NCBI GenBank assembly: GCA_016125495.1
Contig: WGLQ01000002.1
Location: forward strand, 152,969-216,968
DNA: 64,000 bases
Direction: 5' to 3'
Source: Hyphomicrobiales bacterium
Lineage (GTDB): Bacteria; Pseudomonadota; Alphaproteobacteria; Rhizobiales; RI-29
The notes under the pieces were generated by a model. That model ran no database searches. It was not told the DNA's origin and was given only the letters and a program-made list of their open reading frames with translations. Positions 10,616 through 23,580 of the stretch are shown here, in pieces. Both the position numbers and the translations under genes were made by a program. Every line of letters begins with the position of its first letter. The stretch's first letter is position 1.

Positions 10616-12019
<1,404 letters not shown>

Positions 12020-17574: not shown

Positions 17575-19407
17575 ATGAGCGAGGATCGAGACAACCCGGC
17601 AGCGCCCGCAGCACCGCTTCCCATCGATGCGGGCACGCGCGCGCTCGTTCGGCGGTTCTGGCGCGATTGGATCGCCGGGCGTGGCCGCGAGATCGTGGTC
17701 TCGCTGCTGCTCATGGCCGGCGTTGCGGCCACGGCCGGGGCCTATCCGCAGGTCATTCGCTATTCCTACGACACGCTGACCGCCGGTAACCTCGGAGCGC
17801 TCGGCCTCGTCCTGTCGCTCATCATCGGCGTCACGTTGTTCCGGGCAATCGTCCTCTATCTGCAATCGGTCGCCGCCAACCGTCTGGTCCTGGCGATCTC
17901 GGTCGATCTCCAGAAGGCGGTGTTCGCCCAACTCGTCGAGGCCGACTTCGCCCGCATCGCGCGCGACAGCCCTGGCCATGTCGTCTCGCGGCTGACGAAC
18001 GATGTGCAGTTCGTGCAGACGGCGCTGCTGACGGTGCTGAATTCGGCCGTGCGCGACACGCTGACCATTCTGGCCGTCGTCGCGGTGATGTTCCACACCG
18101 ACTGGCTCATGACCCTGGTCGTGCTTTGCGTCTATCCCGTCGCGGCTTGGCCGATCGTGGCGATCGGCAAGCGGTTGAGGCGCAATGCCCGGCGCACGCA
18201 GTCCGGCCTCGGAGACATGACGGCGGAACTGTCCGAGAGCATCTCGGGGGTACGTCTCATCAAGGCATTCGGGCTCGAAAAGCATGTCGCCGGACGGCTC
18301 AACCGGCGCTTCGACGACATCTTCCGTTTGCGCATGAAGGCGGTGCGCGCGCGCTCGGCACTCGATCCGATGCTCGAGGCGCTGGGCGGCTTCGCGGTCG
18401 CCGGGGTCATCGCGCTCATCACCTATCGCATCGCGGCCGGCGTGCTGACCGTCGGGGACTTCATGGCATTCCTCACCGCGCTCTTCATGGCGGCGCAGCC
18501 GATCCGTGGCCTCGGCAATCTCAACGCCCGCCTGCAGGAGGGATTGGCGGCGGTCGAGCGCATCTATGCCGTGCTCGACGAGAAGCCGACCATCGTCGAC
18601 AAGCCCGGGGCGCGGCCGCTGGAGGTTCCGGCGGGCGCGATCGAATTTCGTGACGTGTCGTTCGCCTATGCGGCGGACGAGCCTGCGGCGGTTCGCGCGT
18701 TCAGCCTCGCGGTCGAGGGCGGGCGGACAGTGGCGCTCGTCGGGCGGTCGGGGGCCGGCAAGTCGACGATCATCAACCTCGTGCCACGGCTCTTCGACGT
18801 CACCGCGGGGGCGATCCTCATCGATGGCCAGGACGTGCGCGACGTGACGGTCGCGAGCCTACGGCAGGCGATCGCCCTGGTCAGCCAGGACATCACTCTG
18901 TTCAACGATACGGTGAGCGCCAACATCGCGCTCGGCCGCCTCGGCGCCAGCGAGGCCGAGATCGTGGCGGCCAGCGAGCAGGCGATGGCGGACGAGTTCG
19001 TTCGCCAGTTGCCGGATGGCTACCAGACAGTGCTCGGCGATCGCGGCATGCGCCTTTCCGGCGGCCAGCGCCAGCGTATCGCGCTCGCACGCGCGATCCT
19101 CAAGGGGGCGCCCATTCTGCTGCTCGACGAGGCGACCAGCGCGCTCGACACCCAATCGGAGCGCGCGGTGCAGGAAGCGCTGGCGCGGTTCGCGCGGAAC
19201 CGGACCACGTTGGTGATCGCGCACCGCCTTTCGACGGTACAGAATGCGGACCTCATCTGCGTGCTCGAGGACGGGGCACTCGTCGAATCGGGTCGGCATC
19301 GCGATCTCGTTGCAGCGAACGGGCCTTATGCGAGGCTGGTTCTGGCGCAACTCGCCGACGACAGTGATCATCCCATGGCCGCCGATGGGGCGGGCGGCCC
19401 GCAATAG
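17575..19407 (+). CDS. MsbA-like ABC transporter, fused permease and ATPase
   Basis: 610 residues: about six transmembrane helices in residues 35-330, then the nucleotide-binding domain with Walker A GRSGAGKST (near 390), the Q-loop VSQDITLFNDTV, signature LSGGQRQRIALARA (near 494), Walker B ILLLDEATSALD (near 513) and the H-loop VIAHRLST. The half-transporter layout is that of lipid A flippase MsbA and related exporters. The neighbours, a DUF374-KdtA fusion and lpxK 1-3 kb downstream, support a role in moving lipid A or another envelope lipid across the inner membrane. Substrate is inferred from context. Confidence 0.9.
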   Translation: MSEDRDNPAAPAAPLPIDAGTRALVRRFWRDWIAGRGREIVVSLLLMAGVAATAGAYPQVIRYSYDTLTAGNLGALGLVLSLIIGVTLFRAIVLYLQSVAANRLVLAISVDLQKAVFAQLVEADFARIARDSPGHVVSRLTNDVQFVQTALLTVLNSAVRDTLTILAVVAVMFHTDWLMTLVVLCVYPVAAWPIVAIGKRLRRNARRTQSGLGDMTAELSESISGVRLIKAFGLEKHVAGRLNRRFDDIFRLRMKAVRARSALDPMLEALGGFAVAGVIALITYRIAAGVLTVGDFMAFLTALFMAAQPIRGLGNLNARLQEGLAAVERIYAVLDEKPTIVDKPGARPLEVPAGAIEFRDVSFAYAADEPAAVRAFSLAVEGGRTVALVGRSGAGKSTIINLVPRLFDVTAGAILIDGQDVRDVTVASLRQAIALVSQDITLFNDTVSANIALGRLGASEAEIVAASEQAMADEFVRQLPDGYQTVLGDRGMRLSGGQRQRIALARAILKGAPILLLDEATSALDTQSERAVQEALARFARNRTTLVIAHRLSTVQNADLICVLEDGALVESGRHRDLVAANGPYARLVLAQLADDSDHPMAADGAGGPQ

Positions 19408-19438: not shown

Positions 19439-20194
19439 CTACTCGCGGCGAAGGATGCGGTTGACGACGAAATTCGACCAGGATCGGGAGGCGAAGCCGG
19501 CGCGCACGGTCGCGGGATCGTAGCGGTTCTCGAGCCAGTCGAGGAAAGCCGCCACCTCGCCCTCGGTCCGGGCCATGCCATCGTCGCGCTCGGCGATGTA
19601 GCGATCGAAGAAATAGTCGAGAACGCCCGTGTCGGCGGCGCGGAAATGGCCGAAACGCCAATCGAGCTGGCGCTTGGCGTCCACCGCCGGCTGTCGCTCG
19701 CGAAAGAGCGCATAGAGGACGCTCATCAGTCCGACGCGGTCAGCCCCCGATTTGCAGTGCAGAAGGATCGGGTATTCGACTTCCTCGAGCAGCGTGCGGG
19801 CTTCGAGGATCACCGACTTTTCGGGCGCGGCGCGCGATTTCAGCTGGAAATCGACGAGGCGGATACCGTGACGCTCGCAGGCCGCGCGCTCGAGGCGATA
19901 GCTGCCGCAGTCACGTTCGCCGCGCAGGTTGACGATGGTGCGCACGCCGAGCCGCGCGAGGTGAGCGATCTGATGGGGCGCGGGCTGGCTGGAGCGCCAT
20001 GCCACCGCACCGAGCCGGTGGCGGTTCGGATAGATCACCCGGAAGATGCCATGATCGACGAGCAGCATGTCGAGGTAGTCGTAGATCGGGCCGAACAGCC
20101 GCACCGCCCAGGCCGGCGAGCGGCGGGCGATTTCCTGGCGCGTGCCGGCCATCGACCGATAGAGCTGGCGGCGCTGGCGTTTTGCGATCTTCAT
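19439..20194 (-). CDS. Dual-specificity/tyrosine-type phosphatase (CX5R)
   Basis: 251 residues. The phosphatase loop is HCKSGADRVGL with Cys147 and Arg153. Before it lies GVRTIVNLRGERDCGSY, the usual early strand of this family, in which an Asp often acts as general acid. No signal peptide is evident. The gene sits on the opposite strand inside the envelope block, between the ABC exporter and the DUF374-KdtA gene, so a phospholipid, sugar-phosphate or protein substrate are all possible. The ATG before KIAKRQRRQ was chosen; an upstream frame extension to 20287 has shadow-like composition. Confidence 0.83.
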   Translation of the reverse strand: MKIAKRQRRQLYRSMAGTRQEIARRSPAWAVRLFGPIYDYLDMLLVDHGIFRVIYPNRHRLGAVAWRSSQPAPHQIAHLARLGVRTIVNLRGERDCGSYRLERAACERHGIRLVDFQLKSRAAPEKSVILEARTLLEEVEYPILLHCKSGADRVGLMSVLYALFRERQPAVDAKRQLDWRFGHFRAADTGVLDYFFDRYIAERDDGMARTEGEVAAFLDWLENRYDPATVRAGFASRSWSNFVVNRILRRE

Positions 20195-20462
20195 GGGTCG
20201 ATTCGCCCGTGCCGGCGGTGGCCGCAAGGGCGCGGCGCGATCTCCCCGGGATCGTCCACCGGCATGCGAATCTGGAATTGGTTCCAATAGATCAACGTGT
20301 TGCTCGCTTGCCGGGGCATCACCACGCCATCGCGATCACGCCTTCCAGCGTGCGATTGGCTTATCGGAGATATCCGCTATAGAAACGTACATCAATGGGG
20401 CGGTCAGTGGCGGCGCGCCAACGCGGCGCCCGGGGGGCCCGATCACATTGGAACCGGGGCAG

Positions 20463-22529
20463 ATGCCGCAAGTCGAGCCGCATGCCGCCGCCTCGTCCGA
20501 ACGCGTAGAGGCCAGTTCGTTCAGGCGGCGGCTCTATGGCTCGATCGGGATGCTGCTGGCGCAATATGCGCGGCTCGTCCACGCCAGCACCCGCCTCGTC
20601 GCCGAGCCGGCGGAATTCGAACGGTCGTACACCACCCATTTCCCCTTCGTCGCCGCCATGTGGCATGGCCAGAACCTCATGCTGCCCTACGTCAACCAGC
20701 GGGGCATGCCGGTCGACATCATCGTGGCGCGGCATGCCGATGCCGAGATCAGCGGGGCAGCGCTCGAGAGGTTCGGCTTTCGCTTGCTGCGTGGGGCGGG
20801 CGCGCGCGCTGGAAAGCGCGACAAGGGGGGGACGGAGGCGCTGCGTGCGGCGGTCCGTTCGATCCGTGCGGGGCGCACGGTCGGCTTGTCCGCAGAGGTG
20901 CCACCCGGGCCGGCGCGTCGGGCAACGCTCGGCACGGTGATGCTCGCCAAGCTTTCGGGGGCGCCGATCCGCCCGATCGCGGCGGCGACGACGCACTACG
21001 TTGCCTTCAACACCTGGAGCCGCATGACGATCAACTTGCCGTTCGGCCGGCTGGCACTCGTGATGGGCGAGCCGATCCGCGTTGCCCGGGAGGCCGACGA
21101 TGCGGAACTCGAGCGCAAGCGGTCCGAACTGCAGCAGGCGTTGGATCGCGTGACCATGCGCGCCTACGAGCTGGCCGGGGCACGAATCGAGGGTTCGTTG
21201 CCGGCCCATCTCGCGCCGGTGCCGTCGCCGGGGCTTCTGCTCAGTTCCTACCGGCGGGCGGCGGGGCTCCTTGCACCGCTCGCACCATGGCTGCTCAAAG
21301 GGCGCCTCGCACGCGGCAAGGAGGACAGCGCGCGGATCGGCGAGCGATACGGTATCGCCTCGCGCGACCGGCCCGACGGGGAACTCGTCTGGGTGCATGC
21401 CGCGAGCGTCGGGGAGATGAATGCCGTGCTGCCGGTGATGGCCGAGCTCGGGGCGCGGCGGCGGGATCTGCGTTTCCTGCTGACGACGGGGACCGTGACG
21501 TCGGCGGCGATCGCGGCGGAGCGGTTGCGGGCGGGTGACATCCACCAATATGTACCGCTCGATGCGCCGGTCTATTGTAGACGGTTCCTCGAGCATTGGC
21601 GTCCCTCACTCGCCATTCTCACCGAATCGGACGTCTGGCCGAACATGGTGCTCGAAGTCGCCCGTCGCGGCATCCCGATCGCCGTGGTCAATGGGCGTAT
21701 CTCGGCCAAGTCTTTTGCATCGTGGGTGCGCCGCAGCCGCAGCTCGCGGGCGATTTTCGGTCATATCCAGCTCGCGGTCACTCAGAACGATCGGATGGCG
21801 ATGCGCTACCTGCGGCTCGGCGCACGCGATGCGGTGGCGGTCGGCAACGTCAAGGTCGATGCGCCGGCGCCCCCGGTCGATCGACGTGCGCTCGAGGAAC
21901 TCCGGGGGGCGATCGGCGATCGGCCGGTGCTGGTCGCGGCCTCCACCCACCCGGGCGAGGAGACGCTCGTTGCGAGCGCGCACAAGCTGGCGGCAGAGCG
22001 GCTGCCCGGGCTGCTCACCATCATCGTGCCGCGCCATCCCGAGCGGGGTGGAGCGGTCGTGCGGGAGATCGCGGACCTCGGGTTGAAGGTCGCGCGGCGC
22101 TCGCATGGTGAGCTCCCCACGGGGCAAGAGGATATTTATGTGGCGGATACGCTGGGCGAACTCGGCACATTCTACGCGCTCGCGCCGGTCGCATTTCTCG
22201 GCGGCTCGCTCGTCGAGCATGGGGGGCAAAACCCGATCGAGGCGATCCGCCACGGCGCCGGAGTGCTGGTCGGTCCTCACCGGATGAATTTCCGCGACAT
22301 CTACAAGTCCCTTCTCACGGGCGGTGGCGCGCACGAGGTTACAACACCGGAGGCACTGGCGCGGGAGGCGGCCGGTCTGCTCGGCGACAAGGCCGCGCTC
22401 GAAGCGCTCGGCGCGCGCGGGCAACTGGCGCTCGCCGAGCTCGAAGGGGCGCTCGAGAGAACCGTGACACTGCTCGGCGAGCGTTTTTCGCTCTTTGCCG
22501 GCGAGGAGGAGGGTGCGCGTGCGTCTTAA
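20463..22529 (+). CDS. waaA: Fusion of DUF374 acyltransferase-like domain and Kdo transferase KdtA/WaaA
   Basis: About 688 residues in one uninterrupted frame. Residues about 20-240 form a DUF374 domain (FPFVAAMWHGQNLMLPY, then ARHADAEISG, and LSAEVPPGPARRATLG), a family related to lysophospholipid acyltransferases. Residues about 255-688 are a complete 3-deoxy-D-manno-octulosonic acid transferase: ARGKEDSARIGERYG, VWVHAASVGEMNAVLP, LTTGTVTSA, ESDVWPNMVLE and EHGGQNPIEAIRHGAGVLVGP. KdtA adds Kdo to lipid IVA. Elsewhere these are normally two adjacent genes, so the fusion is unusual. The start is uncertain: this ATG lacks a strong ribosome site and upstream TTG codons are possible. It overlaps lpxK by 11 bases. 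Confidence 0.88.
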   Translation: MPQVEPHAAASSERVEASSFRRRLYGSIGMLLAQYARLVHASTRLVAEPAEFERSYTTHFPFVAAMWHGQNLMLPYVNQRGMPVDIIVARHADAEISGAALERFGFRLLRGAGARAGKRDKGGTEALRAAVRSIRAGRTVGLSAEVPPGPARRATLGTVMLAKLSGAPIRPIAAATTHYVAFNTWSRMTINLPFGRLALVMGEPIRVAREADDAELERKRSELQQALDRVTMRAYELAGARIEGSLPAHLAPVPSPGLLLSSYRRAAGLLAPLAPWLLKGRLARGKEDSARIGERYGIASRDRPDGELVWVHAASVGEMNAVLPVMAELGARRRDLRFLLTTGTVTSAAIAAERLRAGDIHQYVPLDAPVYCRRFLEHWRPSLAILTESDVWPNMVLEVARRGIPIAVVNGRISAKSFASWVRRSRSSRAIFGHIQLAVTQNDRMAMRYLRLGARDAVAVGNVKVDAPAPPVDRRALEELRGAIGDRPVLVAASTHPGEETLVASAHKLAAERLPGLLTIIVPRHPERGGAVVREIADLGLKVARRSHGELPTGQEDIYVADTLGELGTFYALAPVAFLGGSLVEHGGQNPIEAIRHGAGVLVGPHRMNFRDIYKSLLTGGGAHEVTTPEALAREAAGLLGDKAALEALGARGQLALAELEGALERTVTLLGERFSLFAGEEEGARAS

Positions 22530-23580
22530 ATCTCCGTCTTGGTGGTATGGCGGAGAGCCCGGTGCGGTCGCCCGAGTGCTCGGACCCTTGGGGCGCGTGC
22601 ATCATCTCCTCGCGCGGCGCCGCATGCGCGCGTCGGGTGCTTTTCGGGCGCCGGTGCCGGTCATCTGCGTTGGAAATTTCACTGCCGGCGGGGCGGGCAA
22701 GACACCGGTCGCGCGGTTCATCGCGGAGGAAATCGCCGGGCTCGACGTGCAGCCGGTGTTTCTTACGAGGGGGTACCGCGGGCAGGCGCGCGGTCCGCTG
22801 CTCGTCGATCCGGCAATGCACGGAGCCGGGGAGGTCGGCGACGAAGCGCTCTTGCTCGCCGCCGACGAGCCGACGGTCGTCGCGCGCGACCGGGTGGCGG
22901 GGGCCAAGCACGCGCTCACGGTGGTGCCGCGGGCGGGTGCCATCATCATGGATGACGGTTTGCAGAACGGGGCGGTCGCAAAGTCGCTCTCGATCGCCGT
23001 CGTCGATGCCGGTGCCGGCGTCGGAAACGGTCTCGTGATGCCGGCCGGACCGCTGCGGGCCGACCTCAGCTTCCAACTCGAGCACGTTGATGCCGTCATC
23101 GTCCTTTCGACGGGGGCCGGGCGCGTCCATCGAAGCCTCGAGCAGGTGCGGGCCGAAGCGAAAGGTGCCGGGGTGCCGGTGCTCGAGGCGATGCTCGAGC
23201 CGAACGCGCCAGCACGCTTCTTATCGGGCCGCCGTGTCGTGGCGTTCGCCGGGATCGGACGTCCGGAGAAATTCTTCGAGACGCTCGAGGGGATCGGAGC
23301 CGAGATCGTCGCGCGCGTGCCGCGCGGGGATCACGAGCCGATGGGCGAGAAGGAGGCGGCTGGCCTCCTCGATCTCGCGGGGCGCCACGACGCGCTGCTG
23401 GTAACGACGCAGAAGGATCACGTCCGCTTGATGCCCGGGATCGACGCGGGCGGGGCGCTGGCGCGATTGCGCGAGCGAGCCGTCGTGGTGGCGGTCGATG
23501 TCGTCATGGCACGTGGTGACCGGCAAACGGTGGTGGACCGGCTTGCCGGCGTACTCACGGGCACGGCTGCGAGGGTCTGA
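22519..23580 (+). CDS. lpxK: Tetraacyldisaccharide 4'-kinase
   Basis: 353 residues from a GTG start; GGAGGAGGG ends a few bases upstream, inside the end of the preceding gene, so translation is coupled. The P-loop is VGNFTAGGAGKTPVA (about residues 52-66), with LTRGYRGQARGP and IIMDDGLQNGAV (the DDG motif) as expected for LpxK. It phosphorylates the 4' position of the lipid A precursor, the step just before Kdo addition by the upstream fused KdtA. Its stop abuts the stop of the TPR lipoprotein gene on the other strand. Confidence 0.95.
   Translation: MRLKSPSWWYGGEPGAVARVLGPLGRVHHLLARRRMRASGAFRAPVPVICVGNFTAGGAGKTPVARFIAEEIAGLDVQPVFLTRGYRGQARGPLLVDPAMHGAGEVGDEALLLAADEPTVVARDRVAGAKHALTVVPRAGAIIMDDGLQNGAVAKSLSIAVVDAGAGVGNGLVMPAGPLRADLSFQLEHVDAVIVLSTGAGRVHRSLEQVRAEAKGAGVPVLEAMLEPNAPARFLSGRRVVAFAGIGRPEKFFETLEGIGAEIVARVPRGDHEPMGEKEAAGLLDLAGRHDALLVTTQKDHVRLMPGIDAGGALARLRERAVVVAVDVVMARGDRQTVVDRLAGVLTGTAARV

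Follow-up and report, generated by a model that had tools for sequence, protein, structure and literature searches.

Gene organisation and domain structure

The DNA analysed here, a stretch of 64,000 nucleotides from a Hyphomicrobiales bacterium (the window), contains on its forward strand one stop-free frame running from ATG 20463 to TAA 22527–22529. It encodes 688 amino acids (74.1 kDa) within a stop-to-stop frame of 788 amino acids. As the original prediction from the sequence had stated, the frame is unbroken from the DUF374 block to the end of KdtA, and it joins an acyltransferase-type domain to a Kdo transferase. The genes and domains of the locus are:

17575–19407, forward strand: MsbA-type ABC exporter, upstream (TIGR02203, 540 bits, below the cut-off of 602; Pfam ABC domains)
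19439–20287, reverse strand: dual-specificity/tyrosine phosphatase-like gene, divergent and directly upstream of the fused gene (best Pfam match PTP-NADK)
20463–22529, forward strand: fused gene, LpxJ-type acyltransferase (DUF374) plus KdtA/WaaA (open frame, Pfam, architecture of relatives)
20517–21182, forward strand: LpxJ-type domain, residues 19–240, including an N-terminal helix, 19–42 (Pfam, structure model)
20700–20915, forward strand: Pfam DUF374 proper (PF04028), residues 80–151 (49.9 bits, above the cut-off of 26.8)
21183–21233, forward strand: linker, residues 241–257, of varying length and sequence among relatives (alignment, junction list)
21234–22484, forward strand: KdtA/WaaA domain, residues 258–674, a helix (258–283) followed by the glycosyltransferase (Pfam, NCBIfam, PDB sequence and fold)
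21333–21860, forward strand: Pfam Glycos_transf_N, residues 291–466 (187.3 bits, above the cut-off of 23.9)
21414–21416, forward strand: E318 of the WVHAASVGE motif in the KdtA half (sequence)
22519–23580, forward strand: lpxK, tetraacyldisaccharide 4'-kinase (Pfam LpxK, 260.9 bits; TIGR00682, 166 bits, cut-off 91.95)

The DUF374 domain and the KdtA domain are each the sole copy found in the 4.05-Mb genome. NCBIfam KdtA models match the second half strongly (best 3.3e-129, residues 259–671), yet none of the five reaches its whole-protein cut-off (highest score 431.5 bits, cut-off 617). The same half matches the solved WaaA enzymes of Aquifex aeolicus (2xci, E 1.2e-44) and Acinetobacter baumannii (4bfc, E 2.7e-43) by sequence, and both also by fold. 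Weighing the Pfam and PDB matches higher than the missed NCBIfam cut-offs, we assign this half to KdtA/WaaA, of which it has the full length. The PF03279 (LpxL/LpxM/HtrB) profile gave no match on the fused protein in a Pfam search with E up to 0.01. Since third-position GC remains high over the junction (0.78–0.88 in four 60-codon windows, residues 181–330), no hidden frame change is visible.

The likely start of lpxK is GTG 22519, behind GGCGAGGAGGAGGG, and 11 bases are common to lpxK and the fused gene; we infer the translational coupling of the two that the original prediction had stated. When named loci with full 3-kb flanks were compared, lpxK was near in all 35 fused loci; 30 of them had an MsbA-like exporter nearby, and 21 a relative of the window phosphatase. 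The corresponding numbers for 25 split loci were 25, 1 and 0, a contrast between lineages and not between architectures as such, because Bradyrhizobium and Ancylobacter make up most of the split set.

Distribution of the fusion

A stop-free fusion of both halves was counted manually in 18 of 61 genomes and in at least 65 of the 397 genomes of the order, in 15 families, with the window's own genome included in each count; the proposed search for the same architecture in other genomes was thereby successful. Because the same stop-free fusion recurs in this way, neither chance nor a fault of one assembly explains it. Its recurrence in independent assemblies rules out a sequencing or assembly error at the junction, and the frameshift error that had been put forward as a refutation is excluded by the independent genomes with the same fusion. 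Chance in-frame neighbours are also ruled out: in the class sample, the listed matches to both halves (own genome aside) each contain at least one stop. Among the matches listed, neither the 385 genomes of the class (five of them of the order) nor the 200 genomes of the phylum gave a stop-free match over both halves besides the window's own genome.

A scan of named organisms gave, in its best 80 loci, 47 fused, 31 split and 2 with only the KdtA half in view. Fused carriers included Hyphomicrobium, Filomicrobium, Methyloligella, Methyloceanibacter and Rhodomicrobium, together with many MAGs; the fused lineage consists of soil and water bacteria. The split loci came mostly from Bradyrhizobium, with Ancylobacter, Afipia and others. 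The original prediction was right that the two genes are otherwise often separate neighbours; it did not contain the point that the fusion is conserved throughout a lineage. No published description of an LpxJ-type/DUF374–KdtA fusion was found in the literature searched (open-licence PMC papers, mostly judged by listing).

Two side observations concern the sampling. One fused MAG (L102) is labelled Devosia equisanguinis and groups with Hyphomicrobiaceae-type sequences; it is perhaps a mislabelled bin. In 71 of the 397 genomes of the order, in families such as f5, f15 and f23, there was no match to either half, and these are perhaps lineages lacking Kdo-type LPS.

The junction

A start codon with a ribosome site had been said to be missing from the junction, and this is correct in essence. 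In-frame starts are present (ATG 21156, TTG 21198 and GTG 21219), but their Shine-Dalgarno-like runs are short (3, 4 and 0 bases, respectively) and such runs are little above background over 59 fused relatives: a run of at least 4 bases accompanies 15 of 89 start-like codons at the junction and 120 of 977 deep in the KdtA half. As a yardstick, split kdtA genes carry a start-like codon with a run of at least 4 bases near their start in 25 of 46 cases.

Internal initiation at the junction, or cleavage of the linker, would yield two proteins from one frame and leave the fusion without functional meaning. The junction start codons in 46 of the 59 fused relatives, 13 of which have a run of at least 4 bases, would allow for this, as would genome G663, whose halves lie in different frames at the linker (a draft-assembly error is possible) with the serine motif described below kept, and may work apart. 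However, runs of this length are hardly commoner at the junction than inside the KdtA half, and 13 of the 59 fused relatives are without any start-like codon there; we regard two separate products as very improbable.

The acyltransferase half

Pfam still lists DUF374 as of unknown function, and the fusion had been put forward as a possible hint at what it does. This view is no longer current: the DUF374 family is LpxJ, which acylates lipid A at a late stage, and the R. typhi enzyme attaches a secondary chain (PMC6148475). Because LpxJ is already known, the fusion refines the DUF374 question and does not open it. In the R. typhi enzyme W60, H61, D86, D132, W172 and D173 are each reported as essential and H84 is not, with H61 catalytic and D132 its proposed partner; the D173A mutation abolished LpxJ (PMC6148475). 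The equivalent residues of the window protein were mapped by motif and spacing, without direct alignment of R. typhi LpxJ, the spacings of 23 residues from H61 to H84 and 40 from D132 to W172 being equal in the two proteins:

20661–20666, forward strand: W67 and H68, equivalent to W60 and the catalytic H61 (invariant in 110 of 110 non-redundant rows)
20739–20741, forward strand: D93, equivalent to the essential D86 (invariant in 110 of 110 rows)
20895–20897, forward strand: E145, equivalent to D132 (fused lineage D 59, E 3; others D 45, N 3)
21015–21020, forward strand: W185 and S186, equivalent to W172 and the essential D173 (W185 invariant in 110 of 110 rows; Ser replaces Asp at 186)

Within the 110 non-redundant rows, position 186 is Ser in 60, Cys in 1 and Asn in 1 of the 62 rows of the fused lineage, two of them unfused and one split, and Asp in all 48 others; because the rows share ancestry, the change represents one or two events, not 62. 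A larger set, counted after removal of 9 duplicate loci, gave the same picture, with Ser in 55, Cys in 1 and Asn in 1 of 57 fused loci and Asp in each of the 70 split loci. General decay of the acyltransferase site was considered and ruled out, only D173 of the six essential positions being changed throughout. The window protein is named LpxJ-type, and not LpxJ, because the D173 equivalent is absent. The substitution at a position essential in Rickettsia LpxJ is new here and was absent from the original prediction.

The structure model of the DUF374 half (pLDDT 89.3) matches the folds of PlsC, PatA, plastid GPAT and LpxM with Z scores of 10.7 to 13.2; the next unrelated folds reach at most 6.7, except one complex I subunit entry at 11.2. 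The fused DUF374–KdtA gene is real and conserved: its parts are ordinary, its architecture is unusual and an essential position is changed throughout.

Origin of the fusion

Trees of each half were built without rows at 80% identity or more, without L031, which lies at a contig edge, and without L166, whose frame breaks within its DUF374 part. In the KdtA-half tree (111 rows), 57 of the 59 fused rows form one group (SH-aLRT 91) that also takes in 5 KdtA-only rows and a single row with a broken frame. The remaining fused rows, L019 (Cys) and L020 (Ser) of family f7, are separate in the free tree of this half, and family f7 is separate also in the DUF374-half tree (36 of 110 rows). Taken at face value, the free trees of both halves would suggest two separate origins of the fusion, one in the main lineage and one in family f7, with a like change at the D173 position in both. 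We think this unlikely: family f7 sits on a long branch; for the KdtA half the tree uniting all 65 rows is 41 log-likelihood units better than that of the free search (p-AU 0.911); and for the DUF374 half a single clade is not rejected (p-AU 0.266, 36 of 110 rows). One fusion followed by later losses is the simplest reading of the sequences.

Losses, splits and exchanges within the lineage

Of the fused gene, genome G547 keeps just the KdtA half; its LpxJ stands alone, is of the Asp type and is closest to an LpxJ from a different order. This LpxJ (L196, contig G547:C30, about 10873–11631, reverse strand) adjoins a glutaminyl-tRNA-synthetase-like frame and nucleotide-sugar and sulfate-activation genes, names read from the frames. 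Contamination as its source was not supported, the tetranucleotide correlation with four other G547 stretches being 0.977–0.979. In G710 a KdtA half with a linker-like start is accompanied by a Ser-type DUF374 elsewhere in the genome, and G747 has one fused and one unfused Ser-type copy; L176 and L180 are stand-alone Ser-type DUF374 copies. Genome G636 has no DUF374 and carries two tandem PF03279 genes (G636:C3:86420–88212), the nine other genomes compared having one each. G653 also has no DUF374, with one PF03279 gene, and the acyltransferase half can therefore be lost without an obvious substitute. Most of these natural cases would indicate an exchangeable acyltransferase half and two halves able to work separately; G653 shows no substitute.

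The window's own genome has one PF03279 gene, on another contig than the fused gene. The 18 fused genomes have one such gene in 16 cases, two in G006 and none in G009 (84% complete). A single PF03279 gene is not distinctive of the fused lineage, because split genomes of the order usually have one as well.

Lipid A of Rhodomicrobium vannielii

In genome G518, which we take to be Rhodomicrobium vannielii ATCC 17100, the fusion (L151) is the only DUF374, and a single PF03279 gene lies at 3.86 Mb, about 96% along. If this identity is right, the LpxJ-type half of the fusion becomes the natural candidate enzyme for the 3' secondary chain of this organism, and the Ser form would be active. The lipid A of R. 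vannielii ATCC 17100 is reported to carry 16:0(3-O-22:1) on C-2' and 14:0(3-O-14:0) on C-3' (PMC7795004). For the 2' chain its authors point to Rvan_3546, an LpxM-like frame, having found no lpxL; the main text, from which the words LpxJ, DUF374, KdtA, WaaA and acyltransferase are absent, names an enzyme for the 2' secondary chain only and none for the 3' chain (PMC7795004). Tetra-acyl ions without 14:0 were also seen, and were ascribed to ion-source loss or natural heterogeneity (PMC7795004). The phosphatase neighbouring the fused gene in the window was considered as the missing 4'-phosphatase of R. vannielii; this was not supported locally, no such gene lying within the 1.5-kb flanks of L151.

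Proposed function

The fused gene probably encodes a bifunctional LpxJ–WaaA enzyme, with the 3'-secondary chain added by an LpxJ half of altered active site. A single inner-membrane protein would thus carry out two late reactions in the assembly of lipid A. Its C-terminal KdtA/WaaA half would transfer Kdo to the precursor just phosphorylated by LpxK, the product of the overlapping gene, and the N-terminal LpxJ-type half would add a secondary acyl chain, most likely at 3', in the role of E. coli LpxM. The genome's single LpxL/M-type gene would do the other late acylation, and the change from Asp to Ser would have re-shaped the active site without killing activity. Both activities, the 3' position and the survival of the active site after this change are what we infer. 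We favour the bifunctional reading because at least 65 of the 397 genomes sampled from the order, in 15 families, carry the stop-free fusion and the trees fit one fused lineage; because the equivalents of H61, D86, W60 and W172 are invariant, and that of D132 acidic, in 62 of 62 rows of the lineage, in a half with the PlsC/PatA/LpxM fold; because the own genome has one PF03279 gene besides the fused gene; because the acyltransferase half appears exchangeable, for a foreign Asp-type LpxJ in G547 and two tandem PF03279 genes in G636; and because the presumed R. vannielii has no DUF374 but that of the fusion, and a single PF03279 gene, while its lipid A carries secondary chains at 2' and 3' and an enzyme is named for the 2' chain only (PMC7795004). 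Counting against it, the identity of G518 is tentative, and single PF03279 genes are usual in split genomes too.

The change at the D173 position can also be read as having removed acyltransfer. The N-terminal half would then be a relic or scaffold without catalysis, retained because it anchors or regulates KdtA or binds lipid A. Such a role would account for Ser, Cys or Asn at this position in 62 of 62 rows of the lineage, and for G653, which has lost the domain and has no second PF03279 gene; G653 likewise counts against the bifunctional reading. However, the proposed catalytic pair H61/D132 is kept together with W60, D86 and W172, unlike in a decaying site, the Ser is itself conserved, and the stand-alone Ser-type copies L176 and L180 are not explained by a scaffold for KdtA. 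Moreover, should G518 be R. vannielii, some enzyme must attach its 3' secondary 14:0 chain. The loss of R. typhi LpxJ activity in D173A (PMC6148475), at the position where the window protein has Ser, favours the relic and tells against a bifunctional enzyme; the Glu of the window protein at the D132 position also counts against the bifunctional reading. On balance, a half without catalytic function seems improbable to us. Going beyond the bifunctional enzyme as proposed, the Ser-bearing half may define a distinct late acyltransferase class, with Ser for the essential Asp, which acts on the Kdo-bearing product from the attached WaaA, so that Kdo transfer and 3'-acylation form one coupled step, Rhodomicrobium included; this we offer tentatively, as a possible but doubtful extension.

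Two successive lipid A steps would be placed on one polypeptide in a whole lineage. The fusion also provides a candidate for the unnamed acyltransferase in a bacterium with a published lipid A structure (Rhodomicrobium) and a natural test of the role of the W-D motif Asp in LpxJ enzymes.

Comparison with known systems

The closest counterpart of the first half is LpxJ of Rickettsia, Helicobacter, Campylobacter and Wolinella, which is likewise DUF374, has the essential W, H, D and W, and like the window protein lacks an HX4D/E motif; tested members are late lipid A acyltransferases (PMC6148475). The window protein differs from LpxJ in being fused to WaaA and in having Ser for the essential Asp173 and Glu for Asp132. 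The second half resembles KdtA/WaaA of A. aeolicus (2xci, 2xcu) and A. baumannii (4bfc) over the whole glycosyltransferase part, in sequence and fold; those enzymes are single-domain chains, whereas in the window protein an acyltransferase stands ahead of the N-terminal helix. Other Hyphomicrobiales, such as Bradyrhizobium and Ancylobacter, have the same two genes adjoining with lpxK, in all 25 of the split named loci whose flanks are complete, but as separate genes, with Asp at the D173 position in all 70 split loci. A comparable merger of neighbouring genes in particular lineages is the lpxC/fabZ fused gene of Bacteroidetes, Chlorobi and Verrucomicrobia (PMC3087551). Other enzymes are joined there, whereas the LpxJ-type–WaaA fusion would combine two late lipid A steps.
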